Notes under the pieces: model-generated | The model's input: only the letters and a program-made list of their open reading frames with translations | Told to the model about the DNA's origin: nothing | Databases searched by the model: none | In this document: piece by piece, positions 11,533 through 64,000 of the stretch | Layout of the letters: each line of letters begins with the position of its first letter | How positions within the stretch are numbered: position 1 is the first letter of the stretch | Source of the DNA: Serpula lacrymans var. lacrymans S7.9 | Taxonomy: Eukaryota > Basidiomycota > Agaricomycetes > Boletales > Serpulaceae | Reading direction: 5' to 3' | DNA length: 64,000 nt | Assembly (NCBI RefSeq): GCF_000218685.1 | Contig: NW_006763301.1 | Location: 1,416,053-1,480,052, forward strand | Made by a program: the position numbers and the translations under genes

Positions 11533-12487
11533 TCAACCGCTCAATGGGTAAGCAGAGTATTTCCACCATCTGTAATAAATTAGCACCGTCATCCAAGTAA
11601 AGATTCAACAAGTATACTGACCCTTTATGAGTTTCGTAGAGCTGCGGCGGCATTTTGAATTCTGCAGTCATCTCCCATGGCACAGGCGGCCAGTCAAGAG
11701 CACCGCCGTTGTGTGTGATACAAGGCACAACGTCGGTGAAGGGGTTCAAAAGAGTTTTCGAGCGTTCGGAAACACCTTGTGTTCCGACCTTGAGTTCGTC
11801 TACTGTGAACCCACTGTTCTTGAGGAGATCAGGGTCGAGGGTGTATAGTTCCTCGACGAAATGGTGCATCAAGGTGGGAAGGAAAGCCTGAGAGAGTTCT
11901 TTGGCTTTGGAACCGGACCAAGCCTCGGCGCCAGAAGATACAGCTTCGAGGTAGTTCTTGAAACCAGACAAAGTGCCCATAAGCTCCACATGCTCATCGT
12001 GATTCTTGACCATTTCTGAGTTCAGATGAGCGTCCCAGCATGGGAACTGGACCTCCTCCTCAAGCTGATGGTGAACTTCGATCTATAAGAGAAGTAGGAA
12101 TATGTTCAAGGGCCAGTTGTAGACGATCGAATCTTAAGCAGCGTACGTACCATCCTCACCCACTGTTTAGCGTATCCGAGGTAGTTCTCAGCGTCGTCTA
12201 CGGGAGCCGAGGTATCAAATTCCTGTCAACCAGAGTTCAGTAAAGTTTAGGACGAGTTTCGACCAATATATGTACCTTCTGGACCTGCACCCAGTAATCG
12301 ATGAGACACTTGTGAGTCCTCGCCATTTCCCTAAATCATGCATCATATTCTCAGAAGGTGCGTGAAACCGAGGAAACAAATAAGCTGACCATTGGATCTT
12401 GTAGTAGATGTCTGTGGGCTTTGCAGGGGAAGCCAGTTCAGCGATCTTTGCTAGATCCTGGTTGAATTTTTCTTGAGTGTACGCCAT
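11533..12487 (-). CDS. Hemerythrin (HHE)-domain protein
   Basis: Predicted soluble four-helix HHE cation-binding protein of about 239 residues that could bind a di-iron centre. Five exons from ATG 12487 are proposed. The last splice (gtcagt donor, ttattacag acceptor) puts the end in a frame closing with WWKYSAYPLSG and stop at 11533; reading through the intron instead gives an unlikely tail. Ligand-like residues are spaced as in the family: RTHKCLI, EVHHQLEEE, KNHDEHVE and LMHHFVEEL. Known roles of the fold are oxygen or nitric-oxide binding and peroxide chemistry; none can be assigned here. The upstream region carries the long cluster palindrome at 12711, which ties it to the metabolite genes. 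An HHE protein is an uncommon member of such a cluster, so it may be a tailoring oxygenase or an iron/oxidant handling factor (inference). Confidence 0.8.
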
Positions 12488-14123
12488 GGTGGATAGTCTG
12501 AAGCGTTGAAAGTCGTATGTCAAAGGAGTAGTTGGTTTGAATTGAGGCCTAAGTCGAGGCAAAGATGTTATACGCAGACAGCGATACATTCAACAGCTCT
12601 GCTTTATGGTATTCCATTAGAAGTATAAGGACTATTATAACTTTACCCCATTTACCCCTTCGAACAGTCAGTAAGACCAGTGCACTTTTAGTGTGAGAGA
12701 TCTAAGGGGAGTTCATCCGCGGATGGATTTCAAATACAATCCGAGTCGGTATTAGGAAAAGACATAGCCCAACGCCCTCGGTCCGGTGTATAATGTCTCC
12801 CCGCAGCAAACGCTGCGCTGTTGAGATGATGATATGTGGGGGTGTACCAACTCGCCGCCGACTCGGAGCTTCTGCCGTATCTGTCATAAAAAGAAAAACA
12901 TGTTCGATGGATACGAGGGTTTGGATGAAATGAAATCATGAGTTCAGCATACACTACTTACCCAGATCAAACGGGTCACTCACAGCCTCGTATCAGCAAA
13001 CCGATTAAGAAGGGGGTGCTGTGCTGACCCCATATGTCAGATTCAATCTGAATGGATGCATTATATTGCAAAGACCCAAAAATCGGAGATCAAAGTTAGT
13101 CTGGTCCGAAGGACCTTTGGCAGGAACCCCCGCTTCGGTAGTAATAGAGAAGGCACCATGAGCGGCACGTTCGGCTTGAACTCGGCATTTTGTGGCTAGT
13201 CACACCAGGAAAAAGCACATAAAGGTTTCAGCTGAAACAGCTACTGTAGAGAACAAATGTTATGTATATGATCCCTACTATTGTATCGCAACTACGACAA
13301 TTTATGTAGCACCTTGAACCTATATGACTCTGAATATCCCATTTCTTTTTGCCCATGTTTTGGTTCAGGTGTGTCTGCAATTCGTAGCGGCGTTTTAATT
13401 GGAGTGGCTGACAGTTTCACTATCTCAATGGCTCAGCATCTGTTTGGGATGGAAGAAAATTTTGAAACTAGCGTTTTTCGTCATCTGAGAGCTTCACTAT
13501 CAACTCTACCGATTCGCACAAAGGCTCAGTGGTGAGTTACGCTGGTTGAAGCAATAGCTAGCCTTTACTGTGATGCTCAGCCATATTCAATCGGAGCGGT
13601 TGAGTTTAAAATCAAGGTGCAAACAATATTCGTGTTATTGGTACCGAAGGGGGGTTCACGCCAAATGGTCTTACTTTGGTGCAGACCTTATTTACAAGAT
13701 ATCGACTTGACATATGTTGAATTAGGTAAGCAAGGGAGACTAGATCAAAGTGGAAAGTTTAAAAGATCTATTTGATTTCGGGGTTACCGTCTCGAGGACG
13801 ACAGTTGTTTTTTGTCACAGCCACATTTACTGTGCATGATATGACAGCTCGGTGATACTATGATCTTCCAGTATATTGCTCTAGTTCAAAAAGCGAATAT
13901 CATACCGTCCTGATTAGGGCGGCCTCTGAATATAACAAAGCCAAATAACAAGTGGACCAATTTGGAAGGTCGGCGCTCAAGCGCTCTGGCACTAACTTCA
14001 CTTATGTCATTTTATATCTCTTGAAACCGATGGTATGCAGTGATCAACGATTCAAAACTAGGATTACAACACACAACAAGTATAATTTATGGTGCTCTAA
14101 GTACTCGTCGCATATTACATCCC
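12488..14123. other. Promoter of the HHE gene, then unassigned DNA
   Basis: It carries the cluster palindrome about 225 nt upstream of the HHE start. From about 13000 to 14100 no exon chain or family motif was found. Confidence 0.5.
12711..12727. promoter_or_regulatory. Cluster palindrome, long form (HHE gene)
   Basis: Reads gttcatccgcggatgga. The core TCATCCGCGGATG is a near-perfect inverted repeat with two CGG triplets back to back, the triplet bound by Zn2Cys6 proteins. A 17-base identical copy lies in the MFS/P450 promoter at 30658. Confidence 0.75.
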
Positions 14124-14766
14124 TCAGAAGTCTTGTGCCTCAGGATAAACGAAAAGGAATTCCTTCTGGAAAGTCTCTCCGCCAACCTTGAGCAGCTTGG
14201 CAATGTTGGTGCGAACGTCAGGGGTCAAGGCCTCTGGGTGCGCCTTGAGCCACCAGGCGGCCATCATAGCACGTCCGTAGTTCTCGTTTCCAAACCATTC
14301 TCTGCAGTATCGTGTCAGTCTCGTCCGGAACAAAGCGTAGGAAAAATAGACTTACTCGGGTTGGAAGTATTCGAAAATGCCTGCGAGTGGCCTCTGTCAA
14401 AATCGTAGTCTGCGGAGCCACGCGAACGGACTTACCACTGGCGTCAATTGTTGGCAGGAAATCTTCGAGATCCTCCGTAATGCTGTGCAATTTGGCCTCA
14501 CGCTCAGCGTTTGGCTCAGGCGCCTTGAAGATCCTAAGGTTGATTTCACAGATGATGAGCGGCGATGTAACATCGTTAAGAAAATCGAATACCCACTTGT
14601 TGAACTCAGAGGCGTTAATCATGGCAACGAGGAGAGAGCCCTTCTTCAAGAGGCCTCCGGAGTGGTCAATGTGAGTGTCGGCCTCAGCGGTAACAGACTA
14701 TCATTGATGTCTGGTGAGATATTAGCCAGGCAACAAAGGGATGGTACGGACCTCGTAAACAACCAT
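14124..14766 (-). CDS. Unknown small protein, family A copy 1
   Basis: Four exons are proposed, giving about 154 residues. A five-codon first exon (MVVYE, 14766-14752) joins to ADTHIDHSGG. After the next intron the protein continues GIFEYFQPEEWFGNENYGR and ends PEAQDF. The splice set was chosen because only it keeps GIFEYFQPE and EWFGNENYG in one frame. I do not recognise the family. No signal peptide or membrane segment is seen. It is clearly homologous to the gene at 38808-39382: both share a KKGS/RKGS start block, an FEYF/FEFF..EEW/VEW block, and PEA(L/I)TP(D/E)V followed by a G(E)T..F block. It is divergently transcribed from the GST gene with a shared promoter carrying CCGCGG, and a TATA-like element lies about 85 nt upstream. 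The first-exon assignment is tentative. Confidence 0.75.
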
Positions 14767-15382
14767 GTCTAATGTGTGGAAGGAGAAGAAAGATAAGATG
14801 CGAGTGGTTGGTGGATGAGGAAGTGAGAAATGCAGGAATGAGTTGGATGGCCTTATACCGCCTGCCTTTAAATTCAAGTTTCCACTCGAAGGCAGTCATG
14901 CCATGCAGATTTGATCGCGAATAATGTCATAGCATCAAATTCGAGTGTACGTCCATGGCAAGTGCCTGGTGTAGACTCGGAGCATTCGTATGTTTTGCAA
15001 GTGCCATGCCGAGACCTTTAGAGGCACAATTCTTCCGCGGAGGGATTTGTGAGGGTCTCCCTCGCTGTAGTCTCCAATGTCACTGCCGTCGGGGGGTTCG
15101 TTGTCCCCGTTGCTGTCTCGAGTGATCCGTGGCTAGTCCCCCTGATCGTGTCAAGAAGCGACGAGGCATGGCGCATTGCCCAACATGGCGACAGTTCTGT
15201 TCAGAACAGGTATCTTAGGTCTCCGAGCTACTTGTAAACAGGATGTAGGTAATAAACTTGTGTTGTTTAAAGGTCGAGCTAAACAAGTATCGCCCATTCG
15301 ATATTCACCATAATCACGTTCCCCATAGATCCGTCTCTCCCAAACAATTAGATCTTTCCATTCCAATTTTCGCACTTTGAAC
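14767..15382. other. Divergent promoter of small protein copy 1 and GST
   Basis: 616 bases separate two divergent starts. A TATA-like element on the minus strand lies near 14851-14857 and a CCGCGG core at 15035. No gene is seen. Confidence 0.6.
15035..15040. promoter_or_regulatory. Cluster palindrome core (GST / small protein copy 1)
   Basis: A CCGCGG core in ttcttccgcggaggg. Only the core and the TTC to the left resemble the long form, so this is a weaker site than those at 12711 or 30658. Confidence 0.5.
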
Positions 15383-16257
15383 ATGGCTACAGTCGAGTCT
15401 TACGAAATCCACTACTGGCCTATCCATGGTCGCTCGGATGTGTCTCGAATGCTCCTTGAGGCTGCGGGAAAGCCTTACAAGAACGTGTTCATTGGCAGTG
15501 CAGTACATATTTTAAATCTGATCATTCCTTCGAGGAGTACTCAAAATGTGAACAGGAGTGGGCTACCCTTAAGAAGCAACAACGTTTCGGCCACACGCCT
15601 TGGCTTGTTGTGAAATACACCGACGGCACCTCGAAAACTCTCTGGGAACAGCTTGCCATCGATGTTTACCTCGCCGAAACATTCGGTTTCATGCCATCAA
15701 CTGAAGCTGGAGAGGATGAGGCATTTTCCCGTGCTTTCTGCGTTGCCCACCACACCTCTTGGCTCGAGCTTTCAGACAAGTTCGGTGTCGCCATGGGCCT
15801 TCCTACTCTCGAAGAGCGGAGGGAGCAGATTAACAAGCTGAGAAACGACGTTGCTCCTTTACACATGAGCTTCCACGAGAAGATCCTTGCAGAGAGTAAG
15901 GGGCCATTCTACTACGGCGAGAAGGTGTGTGCATATAATCAACTGATCAATACGTACGAAAATACTAACCTACTTGAATTCCAGCCCACCCTCCCTGATT
16001 TCATGGCACTCTCCACTTACCTCCGCATGGAAGAGCTCCTCGGGGAATGCTCACACGAGCAGTTCCCCAACCTCCTGAAACTCAACGAGGCTGTCCTTAA
16101 AGTCCCTCACGTTGCTGACTACGTCCAGAAACGACGTGACTTTGGGTGAGTTTGAAAGAAACCTATGTTAGCATTTGAGAAGCGATCCTAACGCGTCTGT
16201 TATAGTGTCATCAGGTTCGACAAAGACCAGTTGAAGGGAGTGCCGGCGAAGCAATGA
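15383..16257 (+). CDS. Glutathione S-transferase
   Basis: Predicted cytosolic GST of 233 residues that would join glutathione to an electrophile. Four exons: 15383-15502, 15556-15924, 15985-16145 and 16206-16257, all in frame. The first splice was chosen because it yields NVFIGSA directly followed by EWATLKKQQRFGHTPWLVV, the thioredoxin-like N-domain pattern ending in the conserved cis-proline (TPWL). The N-terminus reads YEIHYWPIHGRSDVSRMLLE, as in Sigma-type enzymes. The helical C-domain follows (FCVAHHTSWLELSDKFG, GPFYYGEK-PTLPDFMALSTYL). In gliotoxin-type pathways a GST (GliG) installs the sulfur. Here a sulfur-adding or a detoxifying role is equally possible. It shares a promoter with the unknown small protein. 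Confidence 0.92.
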
Positions 16258-16610
16258 TCGCTTTGCGTGAGAGGTTTTGTTGGAGAATCTTAATTTATCT
16301 CTTGTACAGTACATAGAACTTCATCTATATTGCATATCAGCTATCAGGGTGTTTCTGAGCACAAATAAAACACGAAACCCAAGTTGTAGGCCTACAGCCA
16401 AGTTGAGAAATCACGGCACGTGCCTGGAACGCGTCGCGTCATTAAAGGCAACTTCTCCGGTCACATCACGCTCCCGTTCCTCTTTCCTTTGACCGCCATG
16501 ATACCCTCACACTGCACATGTCTTGTTATCCTTTTCTTTATTTATCTTCTTCTCTCCTGAACACCTATTTCGCTGTCGAAGCTGTATCATCACTACTATC
16601 TTTCACCATC

Positions 16611-16698
16611 ATGGGTAACGTTTTCCCAGTTTTACGTTTGACTCTTTACTATCGAAAAATGCTAGTTGCCCTCAAACACCTCCAGTCAAATAAGTAAT
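16611..16698 (+). pseudogene. Possible relic of a gene 5' end
   Basis: ATGG, a putative intron (gtaacg to atgctag) and a second exon that stops at once. The preceding leader is pyrimidine-rich, as in real genes here. The simplest reading is the start of a truncated gene. A chance arrangement is also possible. Confidence 0.25.
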
Positions 16699-16882
16699 CT
16701 CACGTGAATATCCGTTTTTTAAGGATCCACAAGAGGACCGGTGTAACACATCTATCTTTAAATCGGGTGGATAGCAATTAATCAATCTCTCCTCACTCAA
16801 GCTTCGAGTGTTTCAAAAAAATCAATCGTGGCGTAGGACGGTACAAACTTCTTTGGTGTGGTACTATGTCAACCCAGGAAGT

Positions 16883-17976: not shown

Positions 17977-20900
17977 CTATTTTATCAAATCAAATTGGGC
18001 ACAAGAAACGATCCCTTCGATGGATGGTGTTGTGAAGATCTCGACCATACTCACGTGCGCGCCCCTCGTGGCTAGCTCACGCAACAGCATAGGCGTCTGG
18101 ATGGATGATCCACCAAGATCAAAGAATGTCTTGTCTGAAGGTATTTCACTTGGCGGCCCCGAGGAGCGCAGGACGGCTAGCATAGCATCTCGCACAAGAC
18201 CAATCTTCTCATCGTGGGATGGTACACGAACGACCGAGGGCATGATGGCAGAACATATTTCAGCAGGAGTTGATTTCGGGTTTGCAAGCATTGAAAGAAC
18301 CGTGCGCATCGACGACTCGATGGCTGATATCAGAATGTAGTCGTAGATATCGGCTGCTTCTAGCCTCAGTCGAATTCCTTGGCCTTTAGGTAGCAGCTGG
18401 TAGCCAAAGAGCAAGTCAAACTAAAAGGTGATGGTAAGAATGGCACAATTATTGGGAAAACACACATAGTACTTACCGTAGCCCCTGTACCTGCAACAGG
18501 CACAATGTCTACGATGGCATCTCCTATCCGTAGTTTTGAGGCGGTCTCAGTATCATTCTCTACTGACAACATAACTTGGAATATAGGATGACGGCTTAGA
18601 TTACGAGAAATGCCAATGCCACTAGCGATATCGTTGAAAGCGAGCTTGAAATTTAGAGAGGCAGCCTGCTGCGAGGAAACAACTGATCGAATCAAAGACT
18701 CGATGGAGGTTTGATTCTTCTCGGTAAGCTGCATGCGGAAAGGTATCCGATCGAGGAAGAGACCACATAGTTCGAACTGTTCTGTGGTGAATCTATTTGC
18801 ATGCGAAGCACCAACGACAATGTCTCGTTGGTTTGCAAAGGTAGAAAGGACAAGAAGGAGTGCAGCGCTGAAGTATTGATGAAGAGTCACACCATACGAT
18901 GCTGATGCTCGCTCGACAATGATCCGGAGCTCCTCAGGGATATTGAACATGTGCGACTGGCCAGCATATGATTTGACTGGTGGTCGAGGCTTCGTTAGGG
19001 GGAGAGATATGCAATCTGGGATGCCTTTCAGATAATCGGACCAAAATGAAAGTGCTTTCGACTGGTCAGGTTTCTGAGCGGCTGAGGCAGCCCATTGAGG
19101 ATAATCGAGTGAAGGAGGCATATCGTAAGGGTCCTCTCCGCTCACAAGAACTGCATAATTGCTGGATACTTCTCTCATGATGATATCCAAGGACCAATCT
19201 AAGATAATGTCGTCAATGCAAGCATGTTTATAGATATTAATATGACTTACGATCAGTTATAATGTGATTGGCAGAGAACAAAATCAGCGAGTCGTTGTCG
19301 TTGCATGAGAGACGGACTCGGACAAGCTCCTCGGCCGAAAGATTGAAAGCGTGGTTCAAGTTTTGATCCAGCGAACGATTGAACTCGTCCCTAGACACCA
19401 ACTGTGCTTCGGGAGGGTCTTCTGCCAGGTACCTTTGAGGCCTTCCTGTACTGTCCATGTCATATCTTGCTCGGAAGATCGTGTGACGACCCAGAGCAAC
19501 ATCAAATGCCTCCTTCAGCTGCTCGCCGTCAATATGCCCCGCAATGGAGTACATAGCAGAGACGGTGAATGGCGTCTTGGTGGTCGCGAGCTGATATGCG
19601 AGCCACATACCATCTTCACTGGGCGATAGCTTTTCAGGGGATGGTATGAGTATTTCCATTTCTTCGACTACATGGCCGGTCTGACGGAGAGTGTCGATAG
19701 CAGCAGCAAGGTTACGCAGTACGGGCGTGCTGATGACCGTCAATAAGGGTACCTCGATACCGTACAACCGTGATAAAGCCGAAACCATGCGTATCTGACT
19801 GAGCGACGTAGCACCAAGGCGCAAGAAATGAGCGGTAGCAGATATGTCTTCCTCAGATTCTAGCAATGACTTCCAGATCTTAGCGAGGTCGCGCTCTGTT
19901 TGGGTCGCTGGAGGTTCGTAGCGGACTGCTGGTAGTTCTGGTAAGGGCAGAGCAGCCAGTACCTTTCGATCGACCTTGTGATTGTTCGACATAGGAACCT
20001 CATCGACGGCAATGATGAATCTAGGGACACCGAAATGAGGCTCAGTTTCTGCCAAACGATCGCGAAGAGCCTCGACGTCAATGTTGGATGGAGTAATATA
20101 AGCAACAAGCGCATCTTTGACAACTAGACATTTCGCGGAGGCATTCAGCAGCGTAACGTGACTGGATTTAAGGGATGGAACTTACGGAGAACCGTCGCGG
20201 ACGCCAGGGGTGTACCCAAAAAGTCATTGGCTTCACGGCTGAGTGATTTTTCCACTCCTGCCAAGCTCAACCTGAATCCACCTTTGATCTTGACCGTATC
20301 ATCCACTCTGTCATACAACAACATTTAGGATAAAACAAAGCCTAGGCAGAAGACCAAACACACCTTCCAATATATTCGATTTCTCCGTTGAGAAGCCAAC
20401 GCCCAATATCGCCAGTACGATATACGCGTTCTCCTGGGAAACCAAATGGATCCGGGATGAATTTCTCCTTGCTCATCTCAGGTAGACCGACATAACCAAA
20501 GGTAGGAGGAGTACCACCAATCCATATTTCACCAGGTAACCCAACAGGAACTTCGAAAGAGATTAAGCAGACTTTTCATGAAAGTCATAAAAATGATATC
20601 TCACCTGGTGTGCATGAAACAGGATCAACCATGTAAATTCGTGCCTCTGGCGTTGGACGCCCAAGAGATATTGGATCACCAGGCGTAACTCGTTTGTAAG
20701 TTGCGAAGATATGACCCTGTCACAAAGCTCAAGGAAAGTTGGATCCAACCATGAAGCACTGCTTACCTCACAAGGTCCGTACATATTTCCGAATTTCCTA
20801 CCTACAGACCACGTATCTGCGAGTCCTTGTGGTAAAGCCTCTCCAGCAGTCAACAACTAAACGACACCAATCAGACAATGAACGACTACGATGAAATAAA

Positions 20901-23900
20901 GACGCACCGCTCCGAAATTTCTGTATTCTTCTTCGTTCAAACTGGCAAGCATCGAGGGCGTGCAGATGGATGTGTCTGCGTATTTCAGGTATCCGAGAGG
21001 GTCGTCAGCGTCCTTCAAAAGGAGCGTCGCGCCATACATAAGGGCACCAAAAGTGGTGAAGATGGCACCATCGAAGCCTACCAAAGAACATGTTAAGAGC
21101 AGCTCAAGTAACGGAGATAATCAGTACACACCAAGGGCCATCATTAACGCTACGTTACGACCAGGTGCTGACCACATATGTCCGAAATCTGGTGCCAAGG
21201 CAGTGTCAAGCCCACCATGTTGCAAAGGAACACCTTTCTGTGGAACGACGGGGTAAGCATGCTACCAGAAATATTTATCGTGGAAATAAATTACCGGCAC
21301 TCCAGTAGATCCAGAGGTGTAGATATATGCTACGACATCGTCAACGCTGGGTCGCTTCAAGGGGAATGGTGGCGCATGTGCAGTAACTATATCTGAGATC
21401 TTGAGTTGCTCGAGTTTGAAGGCATTGTGATCTGGAACGCGAGGTACGAGAACTACGCCAACATTATCCCCACGCTCGAGTAACCAGTTCTGCCGTTCTG
21501 GAGGGAGATTACTGTCAAGTGCCAAATACGACGCTCCTGCCTTGATAATACCGAAAACACCAACCATCCAATCGATGCTGTGCGTGGCATAGACACCAAC
21601 AGTGGATCCCACAGTGACATTGTGATGTCTGGCAAGGTAGTAAGCCACCAATGTTGATTGACGATCCAACTCCGCGTAGGTGATCGAATTAGGCCCCTGT
21701 GTGATGGCTACGAGTTCCCTGTGAGCGACAAAGGATTGTTCGACGCGATCCAAGATAGTCGTGGTCGGGTAGAACGGTTTGGTGTGATGAGAGTTCAAAC
21801 CGTGCGTCAAGAAACGCCGCTCGTCATCGTCGGTGATCTGAACTTCCTTAACATGTTTGGAGTGCATAAATGCAGCGACAACATTGCAGAAATGACGACC
21901 AAGATTCTCAGCATGAGATTGATGGAGTTGCTGAGGCTGTTGTCGGATCCGCACAGAGGCCGTCTGCTTGGAACTTCTCTCAAAGGTGATCGAATAAGGA
22001 AACTCAGTTTGTTCGGTGGTGACGGCATCGGAGATTTGCAGTCCCATGGGCACTGGAGATTTCACATTCTCGGCACTGAAGTCATCTGCGAACGAGAATG
22101 CAAAGTCGAAGAGAGACAGGTCTGAAGAGATACCACAAGCGGCCATAGCAGATCCAAGGGAGGACCATTCCCATTCGGTGGCAGACATCACTTTGTTGGA
22201 GGTCGCAAGAAGGAGATCCTTCACCAGGAGCGCATCGTCTTCTATATCCAAGTGAATGGGGAGCGTGTTCACGACAGGGCCTACGACTCGATCTGAATCG
22301 GGTTGCACAGACCTTCCAGTCAACACAACACCCACGTTGGTGTTGGACTTGCCTGTGTACCGACAAAGTACGACGGCGGCGGCGGCGAGGAAGACAGTGG
22401 TCATCGTCACACCTTGAGAACGAGCGAAATTCGCGACAAGATCCAACGCAAGAGTAGAGTTGTAGACAAGCTCATGGGATGGAGCTACCAATGCGCCAGT
22501 CAAACGAGGAAGAGCAACGGGCATAGTGGCGTCTGCACCATCTAGATGCTTGCGCCAGAACTCGGTTGCGGCCTGTGCTAATTCACTTTGACGCTTGACG
22601 ATAGCACGCGCAATAGACGTGAACGAACGGGCAGGGAGAAGTGCGGGTGCCTGCATAGCACCTTTGTAGGAGTTGTATTCTTGGACGAGCTCATCGCGCA
22701 AAAGAGGAGCCGACAAGCCATCGACAAGACCATGATGCACCGTCCACACGAAGAAGGTGAGACCTGCACTAGGGCACGTAAAGAGCGCTATACGAGAGAG
22801 TAAACCAGGTTTGACAAATTCTTCAGTACCGAACCCTCTTTCTACGTCCTCTTGCAGATACATGTCAAGGGCTGACTTGACGGCTGCTTCCGTCTCCAAA
22901 ACCATCAGGCGACGCGGAATGCTAGGAGCATTGCGATGTACGATCTGTACACCGTGCTCTCCAGCATCCAGATGGAATGATGATCTGAAGATTGCATGCC
23001 TTTGGGCGAGCTGTTGCCACGCACCGAAGAAACGTTCGGGATCGAATGGTCCACTGGCGTCTCGTAGAACTGCATACGTCTGAAGCGCATATACGGACCG
23101 CTTAGAAGCTGTAGTAATGAACATAGCTCTCTGAGAAGGCGTCAATGGCGCGATATCCTCTGCAATAGTATCTGCCTCCTTCCCAACTATCTCCTGCAGC
23201 AACTTCCAGTCTTCTGAAGATGGACCTTCGTCCACTTCCGCTTCTGTTGGGGAGCCTAGCGGAGCCGCCACCTTGGAGATGGCCTCGATAGTAGCCAGCT
23301 GCAAGACATTCTGGAACGTTATACTGTAGCCAGCTGTACGAACGTGTGAGACGAGACGAATGGCAGTGATGGAATCGCCTCCGAGTTCCAAGAAGTTTGC
23401 TCTGATCCCAATCTGGGTGTTGATATTGAAGAGTAAGGTGAAACCTGAAGCCACTGCTTTTTGGATCTTTGTGGTAGGTAGAGGACCGGACGACGATGTA
23501 TCCTCATCAGCAAGGGACTCTATCAGGGCTTGGAGTTGTCTCCGGTCTACTTTATCGTTGGACGTGCGGGGGAACGAAGGCAGAGCGAAAATCTTGTTGC
23601 AAACCATGTATGCTGGGGTCTTAACCAGTAGGTCATCGCGCAGTGTTTTGGTATCGATGTTGTCGGGAGTGACCACGCCGAGAAGACGTCCGGCTATCAT
23701 GAAGGCTTTGGCATCTGCAACGGCAGGATGAGCGATCATAGCGCCTTCAACATCACCCTCTAGATCAATGAGGAAGCCTCGGTTCTTGACACGCCTACAA
23801 GACATCGATGAGCTGTGCGTAAACGTGAACAGATCATAGATCACTCACCAATCACTACGTCCAAGATATTCCAACATTCCATCAGAAGTCCACTTGGCGC

Positions 23901-25437: not shown

Positions 25438-25901
25438 CGTGAATGGCCAAGCCTTGCTTGTAGAGTGTAAGGAAAGGTGTACTTAACAGATAAGTTTTTG
25501 TGAGCGGTGCTGGGCCTTATTGTGAAGCGAGGATGTGGACAGTGTAGTTCCTGGGTGGACCACCATCGAACAGAGGCAACCCGCGGGTCAATCTCGCCCT
25601 CAGCCATGGAAGCGCAACGGATCAGCACACCGAAATTAGCCTCCCGAGCTCGACGCGGGGGCTGTGCAGGCTCCAATGGCCGTGTCCGTCCCTGGGTGCA
25701 CCGCCCATCTGCAGGCTAATCACTGAATGATATATCATTTCTCTAATCCTCATGTCATAGGTTTCTCCACGGAAGAATGTCACCATTGGCGTGCTCAACA
25801 ACCCGTCATCGCAATTTCCATTTCATATCTCTTCTTCTCTTCTTCGTGAAAAGCACTCACTTCAACCGTCATCCCCTTCATCTTTATTCTTTCTTTCCAA
25901 C
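25438..25901. other. Divergent promoter of the NRPS and P450-1
   Basis: 464 bases between two divergent starts, with the palindrome core at 25581 and a pyrimidine-rich leader before the P450. No gene is seen. Confidence 0.65.
25581..25586. promoter_or_regulatory. Cluster palindrome core (NRPS / P450-1)
   Basis: Reads acccgcgggt, a ten-base perfect palindrome around CCGCGG, about 145 nt upstream of the NRPS ATG. The outer TTCAT/ATGAA arms are absent. Confidence 0.5.
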
Positions 25902-28220: not shown

Positions 28221-28225
28221 AATAC

Positions 28226-28793: not shown

Positions 28794-30559
28794 TTAGAAC
28801 TTGACAAAAAGTCCGGGTGCAAACTTGAAGCGAGCAGCCCAGAAGAGGCAGGCGCCGGCTGTGCAGACGACACCAGAGAAGATGATCATGTCTCGGAAGT
28901 TACCCCCGTCGTGGTTGATGAGTGCTAAAGTCGATAATGAGTGACTGGTGTCTTTATGAGCAGAAAGTGAAACGCTACTTACCACCAGCAATAGGAGGTC
29001 CCGTGAGGCCAGCAAACGAGACGAATCCGAAAAGAAGCCCGGCCCGTCCACCGTATTTCGTGGTGTCGGGTGTGATCTTACCGATACACGCAGGCATAAG
29101 CTGAGAGATTGAAAAATCAGTATGCGTTGCAGAAGCAGAAAAGACACAAACTGACAGCAATGAATGCTCCACTGGTGAAACCGTAAGCAACCGCCCAGAC
29201 GATAAGTCCAGCGGGAGAATCGACTGCAAGCCAGGTGTAGAGAACAAGCGCAGCGCCACTACAAGCGAGAGCGAGGATGTTCATGCTATACGAAGAAAGA
29301 AATTTAATCAAGGAGTCATGTCAAAAAACAATATCAACGTACAATCCAAGCTTGTCAGCCATAATACCGGGGATAACACGGCCGAAGAATGAACCTGCAT
29401 TTTGAATAGCAAGGACATAGAGATAGACATTGGGACTGTAATTATGCGCAACGGCAAAGGTCTCAATGTAGTAGTAAGGGTTGTACGCTATAAAGATAGA
29501 TCAATAAGTGAGGCAAGACAAGACACTACACCAGAACACTCACTTCCTAGAACTGTAACGAAGGATCCAACCAAGAAAAGCAAATATACTGGATCCTTAA
29601 GTCCACCAAAGTCAAGAAGGGACCCAAAGCCAGCGAACTGGCGGCGAGGGAGACGACCCTTGATGAGGTAAATGGCAGGGATGAGGAATGCGAGGCAAAT
29701 AAAGGCCACAACTCGAACCGCCCAGGGGAACCCGACTGCGGGGATGAGCTTGTTAAGAACAATAGGGAAGACGACACCACCGAGGGAAGAACCTAGACAA
29801 ATGGGAGAAGTTAGCGATGTAAACAATAGAGTGGAGATACCAACACTCACCAGCCGTGGTCAATCCCATCATCGTACCACGCCTCTTAAGGTACCAGTGA
29901 GTGATGGCGCTCAATGCAGGGCTAAGGAGAAAGTTAGAGGTGATTAATCATGACGAAGAGAGTTACACATACTAGAATACCATGGCACTACCAATTCCGA
30001 ATACCAAGCCTTGTGCGAGGAAGAATTGATAATACTCCTTGCAAAGAGAGGTCATCATCAACCCGAAAACCAGAAGAATGGATCCGGGAACGATAAGAGG
30101 GGTGGGTCCGAATGAATCAAACAGACGTCCAATGAAGGCACCCTGAGACACGAGATGAGAACAATTCATATGAGATTGATTAGAAGGAAACTTACGGCAA
30201 AAAAGAATGTAAATAGTTGGAAAGTGCCTATCCATGAAATAGAAGATGCCGTGTCGGTACGCAACTGGTCTGCGAGATATCTTCAAGGTCGGGCGTTGAG
30301 CATGCGCAGTCACGTGATAGAAGTAGTTTGGGAATACTCACTGGGACTCGAAGATACCGTACGAGTTCATGACACCGAACTGAACGAAGAGAACCAGGAA
30401 TGCACCCCATACCACTCTCGTAGCTTCCTTTCCTCCCTCAGGAAACTCGCCGAGCTGTGGTGCTACTGGTTTCTCCTGGATGAGGTCTTCAGGTTCATAA
30501 GACTTTGGTTCTGCTTCAGCGGTCAGGGTGTTAACCGGGCTTCTGTCGTTTGCAGACAT
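28794..30559 (-). CDS. MFS transporter, monocarboxylate-transporter-like
   Basis: Predicted 12-helix major facilitator protein of roughly 440 residues in the plasma or organelle membrane. It probably exports the cluster product or moves a precursor. ATG at 30559 begins a soluble N-terminal tail ([10 protein letters not shown]...), and the first helix follows ([20 protein letters not shown]). Later exons carry the loop 2-3 motif GRLFDSFGP, the repeat [17 protein letters not shown], and [13 protein letters not shown] in the second half, as in fungal MCT-like (MCH-type) proteins. The final exon ends FAPGLFVKF. About eight introns interrupt the gene. A TATA element lies about 85 nt upstream and the long palindrome about 100 nt upstream, so it is a strong candidate member of the regulon. 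The substrate is unknown. Confidence 0.9.
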
Positions 30560-31171
30560 GGTGAGCGTCGTCTAGAGTGAAAATGAGACGCTAATGTTGT
30601 TGTTTTCTTAGATTTTCTCTGAGACCCATCGTCGAAGTGTATATACCAAGGTGTGCAGTTCATCCGCGGATGGACTCGAATGAGGCAGTTACATAATCCG
30701 ACGCGGCTCGGAGGCGGCGCGTCCGTCGAGATGACAAGAACATTCAAGTGTTCCAGTGCAGAAGCCTTGTTCCGTCCATAAAATCACCTAGTACAGCTGT
30801 AAGTCCCGTGTTTCTGGTGATAACAATGGTCCGCATGACTTGCTGCTGACTATAGACCGGGAAAACACCCATCCTCCGCAGTCTTATAGACGCCCACAGG
30901 ATTTTCGCCATTTGAAATGATGCATTGCCACCGCGTGTCGACATGTTAGATTGTTCTATTCCATCAATTATCTACGGCAACACTCCATGGAACATGGCTC
31001 AAACATCCGAGCTAATAAATCACTGTGGGCACTGCCTACAGTGCTCTATCACTTCGTATATCATATAACGTTTCACCCTCGTCCACTGCTTATCAACTTG
31101 TTCTCCACTTTCATTCCCTTACATTCGGTCACTTGGTTTTTTCTCTTTCAATCCTTTTTCTACTATCGACT
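30560..31171. other. Divergent promoter of the MFS transporter and P450-2
   Basis: 612 bases. The long palindrome lies near the MFS side, with further CGG triplets at about 30700-30725. The P450 side is a pyrimidine-rich leader. No gene is seen. Confidence 0.6.
30658..30674. promoter_or_regulatory. Cluster palindrome, long form (MFS / P450-2)
   Basis: Reads gttcatccgcggatgga, identical over 17 bases to the site at 12711 some 18 kb away. It lies about 100 nt upstream of the MFS start, just beyond a TATA element (gtatatacc). Confidence 0.8.
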
Positions 31172-33463
31172 ATGTCTATTCTTCCATTTTCACCGTCAAG
31201 TGACATCTTTTCAACCCTCAATGTTTCGGTCCTTTCTGCTGTTATCGCCGCATGGATTGTCCTGAAGGTATGTGAGACAATTCATTCACTAGGCTTGGAT
31301 TCTTAGTTCTTCCACATCACACAGAGCTCTGGACTTAACCGTGTCCTTAAAAACCTTATTGTCGGACCCAGTGACCCTACCTTTGGCGTCAAAGGGGGCA
31401 GGTCCATTAATGGCCCCGCTTTCAAGTGGCCTTTCGGTAAGAAAATACTACTATTCCTTTGCAAACACTCATCCATTTCGCATAATCAGGAAACCTCGAA
31501 GATAAATTCATGCGCGGGCGCGTGAAAGGTATAGAATGGCAGGCCAAGTATGGCTCCGTATATCGCATCTGGTCTGGCGACCAAGCAGAAGTGTGAGTCA
31601 CTTGTTCAGGCAGCATTTTTACGAGGGGGGTTCTGAAGGCATCATCATATCTTTCTTGCAGTGTACTTACCCGCTGGCAAGATGCTCTCGAATTTTACCG
31701 TGACTCCCACTTGCACATCAAGCCAAGAGACTCTGATGGTGGCTGGATGTTCAAGGCTATTTTAGGTTTCGGGTATGTAACAATTACCCGGGATACTCAC
31801 AATACTGACGCTAACTATTTTTGGGCTTTCAGCTTGGGTCTTGTTAGGTAATATTACGCTACCCATTACGGGTCTGGCCTATACTGATCGATAAACTGCA
31901 GCGAGTCCCAATGGCGTCGTCTGCGAGGTCACTTTGACCCTCATTTCAACTTTGGCATCGTTGTAAGTGTGCTTTTATTCATTCCCATTCCATTTATTTA
32001 ATGTTCCCTTATAGTCCAAATTCGTCCCTGATATTCTCCTCGAGGCCGATGGTAAGTCTTTTCTCTTTGTTTTTCATGTTTCGCCTCCCGCATATGCGAT
32101 CCTTTTTTCAGTCTGTTTTTCTTACGCAGTAAACTAACACGTTTGATTTTTTCGATAGAATTCGTCCAGGGTATCTCACCTTCGGGTTCGGCAAATACAA
32201 TTGACATGCACACGGGTGACGACTTCAAGCCCTTTGGTTTCTTCCTTGTTGCCAAATTCCTCTTCGGTGAATTGGACAAGAGCCAGAGACAGATACTTAC
32301 TGAGCTCATCGACATGCACAGTACGTTCATTTCATATCTCTTTCTTATCTTCGGACCTGACGTCATATGTCCACGCAAACAGCCAGCATCTTCAAGCTCA
32401 TTTTCACTGACGTCAAAGCCATGATTCCTGTGGCCAGATACCTCCCATTCCTTCAGTAAGTTTTCCGGACTTACACAATTGAACATACACTCAAGGGTTT
32501 ATTCAATTGTTCCACGTTCTTCAGAGTCAGTCGCACTATCAAGACTTTCCACGATAGATGGTTGGACTTCAACCACGATGCGTTTGAGAAAGTTAAAGGC
32601 GACCCCAACTATCCAATCACGCACTTGTGGCAAGCAAAGGAGAACGGGACAATGTCAGAAAAGGAGGTCTGTCCGCTTCCTTTCTACCTTATAGTGTTCA
32701 AGGACTGACGGTATCGTAGTTGCTTAACACCGTTGACGAATCCCTCTTTGCAAGTCAGTTTTTATGTTGACTATCTCAATCCCGACTGGAGTACTAATCA
32801 CAATCATGACACGTTTAGATGTCGATGTATCTGCTGGCGTTGTAGCCTGGTCTATTCTCATGACGTCCGTCCATCAATCCCATCAAAAGCGACTACGTGC
32901 AGAAATCGCCGAAAATGCTCATGATCTTGATGGATACGTCCGACGTTCCGATACTTATCTCCACCACACCCTGTTAGAAACCCTGCGCGTGCACCCTGTT
33001 GCCCCCCTCATTCCCCCCGAAAGCGCCACCGTCGACAAAGTCCTGGATGATGGTTACGTCATCCCTCGTGGCGTTAAAGTTATCACGGATGTGGTAGCGG
33101 TCAACGTCCGCGACGAGTTCTGGGGTGATGACCGAGAGCTGTTCAAACCTGAACGCTTCGAGAAACTCACTGCGGAGGAGGTCAAGAGACATTTGTTCCA
33201 ATTCGGCTTCGGACCAAGACAGTGTCTTGGAAAATATATTGCAGACCGCATGGTCAAGGTGCGTTAACACTTCAAAAAAATGACTGCGCATTAATTAAAA
33301 TTTGCTGCAGGCCCTATTGGTATATATGTTCGGTCGATTTGAAGGTGTCGAGCTGCCAAATGGTCAGGACGCTAAGGGTGACTGGAAAGTCAAGGTGGAC
33401 ACATTTGTGCAGCTACCAGATGCACGTGTACGATTCACAAAGCTAGCAAAGCCCCTTGTGTAA
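31172..33463 (+). CDS. Cytochrome P450 (P450-2)
   Basis: Predicted haem monooxygenase of roughly 515 residues in about 13 exons, some very short (one of five codons near 31831-31845). The ATG at 31172 begins an N-terminal hydrophobic segment (VSVLSAVIAAWIVLK, about 19-33). Core motifs are all present: I-helix ANVDVSAGVVAW, K-helix ETLRVHP, PERF, and haem loop FGFGPRQCLGK. The C-terminus ends KLAKPLV. A motif WRRLRGHFDPHF in the C-helix region parallels WKRIRDAVDPHF in P450-1, so the two are probably related in-cluster enzymes. It is divergent from the MFS gene with the shared palindrome. It is likely a second oxidation step in the same pathway (inference). Confidence 0.92.
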
Positions 33464-34472: not shown

Positions 34473-36124
34473 TTATAGGAATCGCTCCGGAGCGTATGCC
34501 TCTGGGTTGAAATAACTTGTCACCTCAAAGTCCGACTTCTTGATTGCCAACGAAACGTATGTGTGGATTCCTGTTCTCGCACTTAATGAACGATGTCTGC
34601 CAAAGATGGACTCCACATCGCGGATGTAACCGTCCACAAATACGCCACCCTTCTTACGGTGATACGCCTCCATACCCTCAGCGATCGCAAGATCGTCGGA
34701 GCAGTAGTGACGAACGGGCAGATAGACTTTTGGGAATGGTAGTGGGCAACCTGGCTTGAGTTCGTAGTAAAGCAACAAGCCTCCTGTAATATGGTTGTCA
34801 TTGGCTTCAACCGACAGGCGAGGAGTAAGGCGCTGTTCTTTCCAGTCTGGAGCAGACGTGTCGACGCGCATGATCATCTCCCAAAGGCTGGTCAGATTCT
34901 ACAATAATAATAAATTAAGCAACAAGTAGAGCGTCAAGGACGAGAAGAACTTACGCTCATTGCGTCCTCGATGACCTTACCCTTCAATTTTCCTCCCAAA
35001 GTCATGAGGCCTTCGAGGTCAGAAAACTTGGTCGATCGAGTACGAACGTAAACCTTGATTCTGCTGTCTTTTGGTGCCGCACAGTCGGTGGCAATGATCT
35101 CCACGCTCGGTCTTATTGAGGATGGGAGAGTGTCAAAGTAGTCCACAGTTGCTGGAAAATAAAATATCAACCACTGCCACCGGATGCGTTGTGCAAGAAG
35201 CAAATATTTACCTTTCCAGGGTGTTTCCAAACCGTGGTCCAATGCCACGAGCGCACGGGAAACAAGCTCATCTTTGGAAACCCGTGTCTTGACTGACTTG
35301 ATTTCAGGAAGGAAGTACGCCTTAAGAGTGACGTTTCCGGTGTGTGCGCAATCAAAACCTGAATGAGTTCGCGAAAGGAGTTTTGAGCATGTGTAGGGGG
35401 CATGGACAAATTGTGTGGAAAACGTACCTAAGAAATACTGCGTAGCGTGCTTTGCGCCAGCAATGTTGCTGTTTCCATGCCAAACCAAAGCATCGTTCAA
35501 GATATCGAACCACTCGAGGTTAAGGTTTCGAATAGCGGGCTTGAGTTCTTCAACCATTTGGAGAGCAGCAGCCTTGGAGTTGTCACTGTTGAGGTCGATG
35601 GGCTCAATAGCATACCGAACAGTGGCTGTCCCGTCAGGGTTGACGATCCAGCTGACTTCTATTGGGGTGTGGTCATCGGTCTAAACAAGTCACGTTGAGC
35701 ACTTGCACTTGAATAATAATGGGACCTGTACTAACCATATAGGACTTGAACTCCGCCTGATTCTGCCAGTTGGGTCGCGGACCCATGTATGGCCGAACAC
35801 GGAGGTGGAAAAAGAGCATGTGGAAATACTGGACGTGGACATCATATCCTAAAAGACTGAACATGCTCGCGAGCATACGTCCTGTCGTATCCCACCAGAA
35901 TTTCCCGTCATTGGTAAAACTAAGTGACTATGCGCGTACATGAGCACTTGGTACACGGGGTCACCTGAAAGGAGAACAGCACATACTTTGCTTAAAATAT
36001 CATATACGCTTTGAACTTGAACGCTTTGAACTTGGGTCTTCCTCTGTTGGGGCGGCCAAATCGCAGGGAATGTCTCTCTAATAGGCGAAATAGGAGAAAG
36101 AGCCACAAGAGGAGAGTGCAACAT
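34473..36124 (-). CDS. DMATS-type aromatic (indole) prenyltransferase
   Basis: Predicted ABBA-fold prenyltransferase of about 445 residues that would move a dimethylallyl group onto an indole or another aromatic ring, with no Asp-rich metal motif. Six exons from ATG 36124. The first intron (gtatgt to gcgcatag) joins DILSK to SLSFTNDGKFWWDTTGRML, which matches the family's conserved FWWDTTG-type N-terminus. Later blocks: YMGPRPNW, VSWIVNPDG, VRYAIEPID, LVWHGNSN, KAYFLPEI, RIKVYVRTRST, and near the end KVYLPVRHYCSDDLAIAEG, the usual C-terminal lysine/arginine-rich strand. A 15-base direct duplication in exon 1 gives QSVQVQSV. In fungi such enzymes commonly act on tryptophan-containing diketopiperazines, which fits the adjacent dipeptide synthetase. 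A TATA element lies about 115 nt and the palindrome about 345 nt upstream. Confidence 0.92.
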
Positions 36125-37280
36125 GTTTCACTAGAATAAAATTAATGTGAAAAGTTGAATAGGAATAGGAATAAGAAAGAGAAAAGAAGTGGAAGAGTGC
36201 CTGGTCAAAATGGAAGAGAGAAAGAAGAGTGGCAATCCCTTTATAAAAGATTGCGGGTCCTGCGTATAACCAATCAGTGAGGTCCAGAAGATCCGATTGG
36301 ATTTCGGTTTCGGCCATGGGGGACGAATAAAGAGACGCCTATCATTATTGGATTGCTGCCTGACAGGCACAGCTATACAGTCATGTAACATACTTGGAAA
36401 CGAGTAGCTGCCATGGATTCAATCGACGGGTTCACTGGCAGACATTGGCTGTCGGAGCCAAATCCGCGGATGAACTCCGGTGGCTAACGGCGATGATGTC
36501 CACAACCTGTCCGTTCTGTAGAGGTAACTAAATCTCAGGGAGAAGAACCAGCTGAGGCTATAGGTACGTCGAGTACCTGGCTGTTCTTCGATACATTCTG
36601 AACATGAAGCTTTTTAGTCTTTTAAGACACACGTTCATTGATGGAGGGTTCAAATGCATACAACAATCGGTGTATGACGCTTCCGAGGATTATACTCTCG
36701 TGATATGATTGATGGCTGTACCCGGTACTGCGACGAGGTGTCAAATCATATCGTTTCCTTAGGAGATGATGACTGATTTTGATGTAGCCAATATACGAGC
36801 TGCTTCAACAACGGGATCACAGCACGATCGTCAGTACTCAATGTCACAGATAGAAGTTCTTAGTGTAACTGACATTGAAAGCTTGACGTCGATCCGTCGA
36901 TGCTGGGCCGCTGCCTCGTCCTTGCCATCGAGGACATTCCTACATACTCGACCAAAGAGATGGTCCGGCCCTCACTCGGATGGAGCACATGAATCAGCGA
37001 GAACAGCCACGAAGTTACTCGAGCGTCGTGAAGTACCTTCATTGCATCGCCAGCACAGAACAGCACCCGCTAGCTAGTAATGAATTGCATGCGGACTCGG
37101 ACTCGGACGAACACTAGACTCGAACTTTGTATAGCCAAAAAAGGTGACACCGACGGTCATAAATTACGTAATAATAGCCATTTTGGGATATCCAAGATAA
37201 ACATCCCCTCCACGTTTCTAGTACGAGCCATACCATACACTACTGTACTACAATACACACAGTTTCTACTAGTAATACCT
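36125..37280. other. Prenyltransferase promoter and 3' flank of the unknown gene
   Basis: Holds a TATA-like element (tttataaaag near 36240), the palindrome at 36461 and about 700 bases without recognised features. Confidence 0.55.
36461..36477. promoter_or_regulatory. Cluster palindrome, long form (prenyltransferase)
   Basis: Reads aatccgcggatgaactc. On the other strand this is gagttcatccgcggatt, matching the sites at 12711, 30658 and 38530. It is the best copy of the right-hand arm GGATGAAC. Confidence 0.75.
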
Positions 37281-38355
37281 CTACTCATAAGAGTACTCGT
37301 GCATCTCAGGCTCTTGCTTCAAGGTCTCTCCGTTGAAAGTGATCACTCCAACGAGAAGCCTCTTGGATATCCTGTACAACAACCGCCATTTCGCAGCCAC
37401 GGGCTTGCCTTGCTGAGGAAGCTGGACAACGTTCAAGACGATTGTCTGCTGAAGCAAGTAAAAGCGAGAGTCTTCACCCTCAGACAAGTCATCCATACTG
37501 AAGACCTTGCCGTCGGTGACAGTGGCGTTGAGGCCGCTGCTAATGTGGCCCTCAACAGCGAATCCTTTGGCAATCTGGCCAGGGAAAGGGAACACGAATT
37601 TGGCAGCTGCTTCGAGATCAATCTCCTTGATCACTGCACTACCAGCGTCGTTCATCCAGTGCTGCGATTTCGAGAAGGGCTTAGCACGGACATCGTCGCG
37701 GAAGAAGTTGACACGGAGTAAGGCGCCTTTGGCATCAGGGGTGGTGGGAGTGGAGAAGAAGGGGAAGACGGCGACACGGATCTGGTCGTTGGGTTGGAAG
37801 ACAAGCTCGCCGAAGAAGGGAGCACCCCATTTGATCTGCTTGACGAAAACTGATCCGTGACCTATATGAGAACGAAGTTCTTTAGTCAAAGATTTTTCAG
37901 AAAATTTGGTACATGAACTTACCGGTAGGGGGGAAAGCGAACAGGCGGAGGTTGGCAGCCATTGGGCCCTCTGGTAGGCACGCCATACCATCATCGAGGA
38001 GATTCTCACTCTTGGGAAGAGCATATCTCCTGTGCTCTTCACCGGTAGCCTTCTGGTAACGCTTCTCGTGGTAAACCTCGCCGGTTTCGTCACGAGAGAA
38101 GCCTCGGACACCGCTGTAGTGGTCGATGAGAGGGTAGATTCCGTCTTTTGGTTGGGTCATGTCGAAAGTCTGACAGTAGCAACCCCACTCGCGCAAGTTC
38201 CACCTCCATGAGTCCCACTGCTTCTCTTTCCAGTATTCGGGGTCGTCTTTAGCATTAAGTTCTTCGACAGTCTCGACGCCATAGAAGTCGAGAAGAGCTT
38301 TGAGTCTTTGGCGGTTAAGCTCTGAGGGTGCGACGGGGACAGACATGTTTGACAT
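37281..38355 (-). CDS. Unknown cluster protein, possibly calycin/DUF3598-like
   Basis: Two exons (38355 to about 37922, then about 37862 to 37281) encode about 338 residues. The joint reads PPTG-HGSVF. ATG at 38355 is followed by a second in-frame ATG three codons later, which could also be the start. I do not recognise it firmly. It is soluble, with no signal peptide or membrane helix. An N-terminal helical part (LNRQRLKALLDFYGVETVEEL) is followed by strand-rich sequence with WRWNLREWG and a half reading GAPFFGELVFQPNDQIRVAVF. Alternating strands, an early Trp-rich block and 'G..FG.E..F...D.IRV' loosely recall calycin-type DUF3598 proteins. The promoter, shared with small protein copy 2, holds two CCGCGG cores. 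Lipocalin-like folds serve as cyclases in some fungal pathways, so a cyclase role is conceivable but unproven. Confidence 0.7.
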
Positions 38356-38529
38356 GGTTGCGAAATGCAAGGACGTGAAGTGTGTTTAGGTGCCTTTCGA
38401 CGGAGAACAGGTCCACATTATAACTACCAAGAGGAACATACGACATCGCAGCATGAAAAAACTATGCTGTTCGCCGTGATTGAAACCATCAACGGTTGCT
38501 AGAGTATACTCTGCGACGCCGAGTGTCGA

Positions 38530-38542
38530 GTTCATCCGCGGA
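38530..38542. promoter_or_regulatory. Cluster palindrome, long left arm (unknown protein / copy 2)
   Basis: Reads gttcatccgcgga, with gag before it as in other copies. The right arm is broken after GGA. Confidence 0.7.
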
Positions 38543-38585
38543 ACATCAGCGCGCACTTGCTCATGTTTTTCGCCATTTTCATTTC

Positions 38586-38591
38586 CCGCGG
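38586..38591. promoter_or_regulatory. Second palindrome core in the same promoter
   Basis: CCGCGG in tttcccgcggaagc, 51 bases from the better site. Only the core and a weak TTC/GAA pair are kept. Confidence 0.45.
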
Positions 38592-38807
38592 AAGCGATAG
38601 CAGTGCCGCAGCTCAAACGCGTCCATGGTCCATCCGCCACGCCAGTGTTCAGGTCGTGGCGATGACTTTTCACTGACAACGCTTTCGATCAAAGTGATAT
38701 ATTCTCCAAGACCCAATAAAAGGATTCAACAGGATACCTCAAGACTCAGACTTAAACGAAAAACCACTTTCACCACTTATCAACCACCACTTCATTCTCG
38801 ATTCACT

Positions 38808-39382
38808 ATGGTCAAGTACGATGAGCTTACAAAGATGGGTGAGGCCTCTGTCGTGATGAACGGCGAGACGTGAGTCGAGCATCTTTTCAAAGCTACGCAC
38901 CGTGCTGAACGCTTCATACAGTGTCCGCAAAGGTTCCTTCTACGTCGGAATGGTGAACGGTGTTGCTTTTGAGAAGCTTGCCGAAGACCCTCCTGCCCAC
39001 GCTGGGGAACTGGCCGACGTTATCATTGCTGATATCGATAAGCTTCCCCTTGTCAACGCCGGTATGTAGATCTCCGATCCGATGGCCTTCTGTTCCGTGC
39101 TGACGATCCATTCAGGTGCCTTCGAATTTTTCACGTGAGTTACCGAAGAGACCCCGTTTTATTGACAGTGTCCTGATAATATGGTTCTTCAGCCCCGTAG
39201 AGTGGCTTGCCAATGGTGGAGAGGGACGCAGCTTGATCTGCCTTGTATACCTTCGACGTGTCCCTGAAGCTATCACCCCTGAAGTCCAACAGGCTCTGAA
39301 CGCTCGGGCAAAGAGGGGCACATCATTGTTCCGTCAAACCGTCAAGAAGGTCCTGAACAACCCTTCTTGGTACGAGTACTAG
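38808..39382 (+). CDS. Unknown small protein, family A copy 2
   Basis: Four exons (38808-38869, 38922-39061, 39116-39134, 39193-39382) join in frame to 136 residues. One exon is only 19 nt. It begins MVKYDELTKMGEASVVMNG and ends NNPSWYEY. It is soluble, with no signal peptide. It is homologous to copy 1 at 14124-14766: RKGSFYVGMVNG against KKGSLLVAMINA, GAFEFFTPVEW against GIFEYFQPEEW, and PEAITPEVQ against PEALTPDVR. The N-terminal part is shorter than in copy 1. The family is not one I can name. Being present twice, at the two ends of a co-regulated cluster, suggests a role in the pathway: perhaps a small enzyme, a scaffold or a self-protection factor. None of these can be chosen from sequence. 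Confidence 0.8.

Positions 39383-62588: not shown

Positions 62589-64000
<1,412 letters not shown>

Follow-up and report, generated by a model that had tools for sequence, protein, structure and literature searches.

A Serpula lacrymans gene cluster with a two-module peptide synthetase and a DMATS-family prenyltransferase as a candidate source of himanimide- and antrodin-type maleimides

In gliotoxin biosynthesis, the nonribosomal peptide synthetase (NRPS) GliP carries its adenylation (A), carrier (T) and condensation (C) domains in the order A-T-C-A-T-C-T. In sirodesmin biosynthesis of Leptosphaeria, a two-module NRPS, SirP, is found beside the DMATS-family prenyltransferase SirD, and an early product is an O-prenyl-tyrosine diketopiperazine. 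A locus related in layout to both systems was examined in the basidiomycete Serpula lacrymans var. lacrymans S7.9, within a window of 64,000 nucleotides (NW_006763301.1, positions 1,416,053 to 1,480,052), where an NRPS and a DMATS-family enzyme are encoded in a 28-kb block of ten predicted genes (11.5–39.4 kb of the window). SirD is described as a tyrosine enzyme (PMC11443524). A basidiomycete cluster around a tyrosine-type DMATS enzyme is also described, namely cluster 24 of Laetiporus sulphureus, with phenylalanine ammonia-lyase, an FAD protein, an esterase and others as neighbors; no NRPS is named in the available part of that report (PMC9602373). The remaining likeness is chemical, in that the himanimides, antrodins, and camphorataimides are maleimide or succinimide products reported from genera with the NRPS–DMATS pair. 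No gene cluster assigned to himanimides or antrodins was found in the open-access literature, nor was any described cluster with the Serpula gene set, in line with an earlier note on this DNA, made from its letters alone, which could match the set to no described pathway.

Based on sequence comparison, the 28-kb block is interpreted here as a set of co-regulated genes that would make 4-prenyloxyphenyl maleimides like the himanimides and antrodins, with a probability of about 0.74. Its enzymes probably couple a prenylated tyrosine with another amino acid, and the himanimide and antrodin maleimides known from wood-decay mushrooms may be made in this way. The most fitting reading is that of a SirP/SirD counterpart in a basidiomycete, which would lead to prenyloxyphenyl maleimides, not to sulfur-bridged diketopiperazines. 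Gene models (20 in the window) were made with our own splice-aware predictor; Pfam scanning took in 15 of the 20, with g13 in part and g15 to g19 outside the scan, and covered 12 of 12 models between 5.8 and 39.4 kb. The ten genes of the block are as follows.

11533..12487, minus strand: g3, hemerythrin-like protein, 240 aa, 5 exons
14124..14766, minus strand: g4, small protein weakly DUF7709-like (Pfam), paralogue of g12
15383..16257, plus strand: glutathione S-transferase (GST), 230 aa; best solved-structure match a sigma-type GST
17977..25437, minus strand: NRPS, A-T-C-A-T-C-T, 2247 aa, 14 exons
25902..27872, plus strand: cytochrome P450 a, 545 aa (Pfam p450, E=1e-39)
28794..30559, minus strand: MFS transporter, 438 aa (Pfam MFS_1, E=3.7e-34)
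31172..33463, plus strand: cytochrome P450 b, 512 aa, 13 exons in the model (Pfam p450, E=8.8e-46)
34473..36124, minus strand: DMATS-family prenyltransferase, 450 aa, 6 exons, probable tyrosine O-prenyltransferase
37281..38355, minus strand: g11, orphan protein, 337 aa
38808..39382, plus strand: g12, 136 aa, weakly DUF7709-like (Pfam E=3.3e-4, below cut-off)

The predicted NRPS was 100% identical over 100% of its length to the deposited protein SERLA73DRAFT_76920. Pfam placed two AMP-binding, two Condensation, and three PP-binding stretches on it; serine is the last residue of all three carrier motifs (610-614, 1671-1675, and 2202-2206), and the condensation motifs HHGLVDG at 826 and NHIITDH at 1854 keep HxxxD intact. 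Domain order, carrier serines, and HxxxD motifs are thus those of a GliP-type enzyme, and the 2247-residue, 14-exon architecture proposed previously was confirmed. The C2-T3 portion gave 6p1j as its best solved-structure match (E=1.1e-35), in a comparison with references outside the fungal cyclizing clade. Elsewhere in the genome, near-complete condensation-domain matches were observed in frames of 668, 589, and 589 aa (C11:1318905, C2:880506, and C11:1808138, respectively).

The DMATS model was likewise 100% identical over its full length to a deposited protein, SERLA73DRAFT_187119, and the basidiomycete cluster suggested from the letters is confirmed as such. The two P450s, the GST, and the MFS transporter of the proposed gene set were all found by Pfam, too. 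The DMATS protein matched the Trp_DMAT profile at E=6.5e-96 and keeps eight of nine further FgaPT2 positions (E89, R100, K187, Y189, R257, K259, Y261, and Y345, with Y191 replaced by Leu), so that profile and Glu/Arg/Lys/Tyr active-site set are both those of a DMATS-type aromatic prenyltransferase. Its solved-structure matches were Fusarium DMATS1 (155 bits), GliD1 (133), FgaPT2 (101), 4ld7 (83), NotF (60), and FtmPT1 (56), where the entries named as DMATS1, FgaPT2, and FtmPT1 are so assigned by assumption and 4ld7 is presumably the cyclic-dipeptide enzyme AnaPT.

For substrate type, two positions were compared with published groupings. At the position of Lys174 in FgaPT2, a C4-tryptophan enzyme, all 4-O-dimethylallyl-tyrosine synthases have Phe, and at that of Gln343 they share a Lys that is frequent in other groups as well (PMC11443524). 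The Serpula enzyme has Phe and Lys at these positions, as in the tyrosine enzymes, and two near relatives (P0003 and P0005) have been given a tyrosine-synthase name by a source, with P0003 bearing a tryptophan name as well. On these grounds O-prenylation of tyrosine is a more probable function of the protein than indole prenylation, and tyrosine is its likeliest substrate. The earlier note had called it an indole prenyltransferase, and a prenylated indole diketopiperazine as the product would agree with the family name, with the NRPS layout, and with Fusarium DMATS1, the best solved-structure match, which has the same Phe/Lys pair and prenylates tryptophan. The family assignment stands; the indole substrate is weakened by the replacement of FgaPT2 Lys174 and Gln343, by the names of the two near relatives, and by the lower scores of the cyclic-dipeptide prenyltransferases (4ld7, NotF, and FtmPT1) relative to DMATS1, and an indole product is considered very unlikely. 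A second, diverged DMATS gene was observed in the genome at C17:187824-188945; its product scores 34% against the Taiwanofungus enzyme and has the Phe/Lys pair, too. Inspection by eye of the surrounding 20 kb showed an adenylating-enzyme-like and a permease-like gene and no multi-module NRPS.

Relatives of the cluster were then sought in other fungi, a search the earlier note had proposed. For the NRPS (7981 candidates scored; best 120 of 7978 matches), near relatives among the matches listed were only those of Taiwanofungus camphoratus (62%) and Sparassis latifolia (59%), beside the self-match; the remaining listed rows were at or below 29%, with the named ones bacterial. The DMATS search gave 51 matches, including T. 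camphoratus (68%), S. latifolia (67%), and Sparassis crispa (57%). In T. camphoratus, linkage was compared for NRPS, DMATS, g11, and g3. The first three homologues all show the same longest contig (1,741,554 bases) and by this equality appear to lie on one contig. The contig of the S. crispa g3 homologue (1,251,708) equals the longest contig also given for DMATS group P0003. Near NRPS relatives among the matches listed thus join Serpula, which we place in the Boletales, to Taiwanofungus and Sparassis, which we place in the Polyporales; transfer between lineages and many losses are both options for this distribution.

The chemistry reported from these fungi is of one type. Himanimides carry a benzyl group where antrodins have isobutyl. 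Antrodins A to E of T. camphoratus comprise 3-isobutyl-4-[4-(3-methyl-2-butenyloxy)phenyl] maleimide, anhydride, and succinimide derivatives, some of them N-hydroxylated (PMC3095428). Antrodins C and D were among the S. crispa alkaloids identified by mass spectrometry and are said to be known from the genus Sparassis (PMC6720900); Serpula himantoides yielded himanimides A and B, with camphorataimides mentioned as related targets (PMC12402884), and himanimide C is an analogue of YMGKI-1 of Antrodia cinnamomea (PMC3703405). Maleimides or succinimides of this type are therefore reported from all three genera that have the NRPS and DMATS or relatives of them, and the gene pair was found in two of two other genera reported with himanimide/antrodin-type compounds. 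The name antrodin may be shared by other compounds, as antrodin C is called a triquinane-type sesquiterpene in PMC12355660, against the maleimide structure in PMC3095428, and the word also occurs in a triquinane review (PMC6225328). Antrodin C and its relatives have been studied for liver and tumor effects.

The A-domain pockets were compared across the three NRPSs by profile alignment, with a profile built on the three A1 domains only, to which the A2 domains were aligned. A1 codes were DAGHYGCCV in Serpula and DAGHFGCCA in both Taiwanofungus and Sparassis, whereas A2 codes were DGFTLAMIF, DGMCAGMIL, and DGMCVGMIA, respectively. The Serpula pocket differs from either relative at two of nine positions in A1 and five of nine in A2, whereas the whole A1 and A2 domains have diverged to a similar degree (67 and 64% between Serpula and Taiwanofungus). 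A near-constant A1 and a changed A2 at similar domain divergence fit a model in which A1 always takes (prenyl)tyrosine and A2 takes a partner that varies. At position 239, A1 has Gly, seen there in 12 of 391 background domains (440 taken from bacterial or unnamed, not fungal, NRPSs of the match list, less 49 with gapped codes); the propargyl-tyrosine mutation of GrsA is, we assume, W239S. A single GrsA pocket mutation gave a large switch to propargyl-tyrosine (PMC12959268).

Promoters were compared in six regions picked by the analyst (3346 bases in all); the motif was found in these same regions, and its statistics are partly post hoc. The window contains five copies of the 8-mer TCCGCGGA, one in each of five of the six cluster promoter regions; the 8-mer lies within a longer palindromic element, AGTTCATCCGCGGATGAACT, as follows.

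12710..12729: upstream of g3, 18/20 to AGTTCATCCGCGGATGAACT
15028..15047: between g4 and GST, 15/20
25579..25588: NRPS/P450 a divergent promoter, variant element ACCCGCGGGT with CCGCGG core
30657..30676: between MFS and P450 b, 19/20
36457..36476: upstream of DMATS, 15/20
38529..38548: between g11 and g12, 16/20

In 200 shuffles, an 8-mer in five regions was never obtained and four regions were reached in 11; 7-mers in at least five regions arose in 17 of the 200, and for this reason 7-mers alone mean little. Among 2000 random sets of six windows, a single set had an 8-mer shared by five windows, and in no set was such an 8-mer confined to the chosen windows. Matches to AGTTCATCCGCGGATGAACT of at least 15/20 numbered seven in the window against a mean of 0.35 per simulated window (40 simulated, with best matches of 13 to 16 of 20); two of the seven, both 15/20, are at 54123 and 55267, beyond the cluster. 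Genome-wide, allowing up to one mismatch, TTCATCCGCGGATGAA was reported at two sites, both in the cluster, and with two mismatches at ten additional sites (two for the reversed-pattern control), and TCATCCGCGGA at 17 sites, four of them in the cluster (control, five). The sharing of TCCGCGGA by five of six promoters supports a single regulon with the borders drawn previously (11533..39382, from g3 on the left to g12 on the right), and the cluster genes are apparently co-regulated as one. Since two deposited genes were matched exactly and the element was not reproduced in random window sets, the locus is beyond chance. Four divergent pairs, by coordinates, take in eight of the ten genes.

A candidate regulator adjoins the cluster on its left:

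5572..7917, plus strand: Zn2Cys6 transcription factor (Zn_clus, E=2.1e-9; start chosen by eye)

Zn2Cys6 proteins often bind CGG-type half-sites, and on that account this factor is a candidate for control of the cluster.

Several observations weigh against the maleimide assignment. The Phe/Lys pair is not exclusive to tyrosine enzymes, being present in 45 of the 51 DMATS search matches, in the second Serpula DMATS, and in Fusarium DMATS1, which we take to be a tryptophan N-prenylating enzyme; with the pair common to so many DMATS proteins, it argues only against the C4-tryptophan type. DMATS relatives extend beyond the two genera, to Somion occarium (53%) and Meripilus lineatus (46%), for which no near NRPS was listed. 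Linkage in T. camphoratus rests on contig equality, not map distance, and its g3 homologue shows another contig (780,258 bases), so that the apparent linkage there is limited to NRPS, DMATS, and g11. Serpula A2 is nearest a leucine code (5/9), then phenylalanine and isoleucine (4); Taiwanofungus A2 ties leucine and isoleucine at 3, and Serpula A1 ties tyrosine and leucine at 4, in a comparison with a list of known codes that decided neither domain. The NRPS/P450 a promoter has the shorter ACCCGCGGGT in place of the full palindrome. As for the compounds, the reports place himanimides in the sister species Serpula himantioides, not in S. lacrymans, and the near Sparassis NRPS is from S. latifolia, whereas the antrodin report, by mass spectrometry, is from S. 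crispa. Free, non-prenylated phenols also occur in T. camphoratus (PMC3095428), which implies that prenylation may come late.

Under the maleimide assignment, a route can be drawn in which the DMATS enzyme, judged by family and residues, would place a dimethylallyl group on the phenol oxygen of tyrosine, either free or already built in. A1 of the NRPS would load the (prenyl)tyrosine and A2 the second residue, expected to be phenylalanine in Serpula and leucine in Taiwanofungus and Sparassis, and the coupled pair would, from what is known of the family, most likely be released as a diketopiperazine by the terminal C-T pair. Oxidation of the dipeptide or diketopiperazine would fall to the P450s and possibly to the hemerythrin-like g3. 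Atom mapping suggests that the tyrosine beta-carbon would be joined to the alpha-carbon of the other residue, with loss of the tyrosine carboxyl and of the other residue's nitrogen, so that the maleimide nitrogen would be that of tyrosine; some products would be N-hydroxylated afterwards. For the unusual ring-forming step, g11 is a speculative candidate because it was found once in the genome and its homologue is apparently linked to NRPS and DMATS in Taiwanofungus. The MFS pump might export the product and the GST might give protection. More tentatively, and somewhat against the odds, the ring of the diketopiperazine could be contracted enzymatically to that of the maleimide, with decarboxylation and deamination, through g11 and the hemerythrin-like iron protein, as a new route to maleimides from peptides.

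The diketopiperazine could also be the end product, either as an oxidized, phomamide-like O-prenyl-tyrosine compound or as a sulfur-bridged one. For the former, the A-T-C-A-T-C-T order together with tyrosine-type DMATS residues parallels SirP/SirD, whose early product is of this kind; yet maleimides and succinimides are the compounds reported from the genera in which relatives of the NRPS and DMATS occur, and no such diketopiperazine from the three genera was met in the open-access literature, in which no search was aimed at it. We regard this outcome as unlikely. The same reports make a diketopiperazine, the kind of product suggested in the earlier note, more likely an intermediate than an end product. 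An epipolythiodioxopiperazine cluster of the gliotoxin/sirodesmin kind in a basidiomycete would agree with the NRPS layout, the GST, and the P450s, but the GST has a sigma-type enzyme as its best solved-structure match, and no C-S lyase, dipeptidase, or thioredoxin-reductase-like gene was detected by Pfam in the 12 of 12 models at 5.8–39.4 kb, distant loci and predictor-missed genes lying outside the scan. With the remaining gliotoxin gene set not seen in these models either, and the sequence matches listed beyond the two basidiomycetes being distant, the likeness to GliP is one of architecture only, and to that extent alone does the label gliotoxin-type hold; a sulfur-bridged product is highly improbable. 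The likeness to sirodesmin goes further, with a tyrosine-type DMATS beside a two-module NRPS, and the Serpula models differ in showing no sulfur-bridge genes, in their sigma-type GST and g11, hemerythrin-like, and DUF7709-like genes, and in the maleimide expected as product.

Of the less familiar proteins (g3, g4, g11, and g12), which the earlier note did not mention, g3 is predicted to form a four-helix bundle with a conserved His/Glu set, as expected of a hemerythrin-like HHE protein; it scored 23.6 bits against Pfam Hemerythrin (cut-off, 25.3), and its homologues P0177 and P0180 carry precomputed PF01814. For g11, Pfam similarity was very weak and confined to DUF3598_N (0.039) and Lipid_bd (0.098), either one appearing in a single member of the three scanned. 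Two attempts at its fold were discarded: AlphaFold on two homologues had a mean pLDDT of 31.8 and was unusable, and a solved-structure profile search returned designed repeat proteins as its best rows, with no stretch passing alone. In the Serpula genome, g3 and g11 matches were reported at the cluster locus only. A search elsewhere with joined parts of both proteins gave nine matches, seven to g3 and two to g11. Further relatives beside those named were observed for DMATS (63 and 70%), g3 (64%), and g11 (59% over the queried piece), which suggests that additional fungi carry parts of the cluster.

The g4 exon model is uncertain (138 or 159 aa), and the 138-aa version matched DUF7709 at E=1.3e-7 and 32.1 bits, below the cut-off of 33.3. 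By alignment g4 and g12 are paralogous, and these weakly DUF7709-like proteins flank the cluster near its two ends. To the left lie an alcohol dehydrogenase and the Zn2Cys6 regulator; to the right, a gene encoding DUF382 and PSP domains is followed by one for a phosphatidylserine decarboxylase, both presumably housekeeping. A run of N at 44292-44598 falls within gene models right of the cluster, and model g13 there is unreliable. A phenol-hydroxylase-like FAD enzyme was noted at 62589-63925 (FAD_binding_3, from profile position 262, and Phe_hydrox_dim), the start of which is probably outside the window.

If the maleimide assignment is correct, the locus would represent the genes for antrodins and himanimides, and Sparassis DMATS genes listed as indole-alkaloid genes in PMC6720900 might have another role. 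The unexplained reaction from dipeptide to maleimide would then become directly testable.

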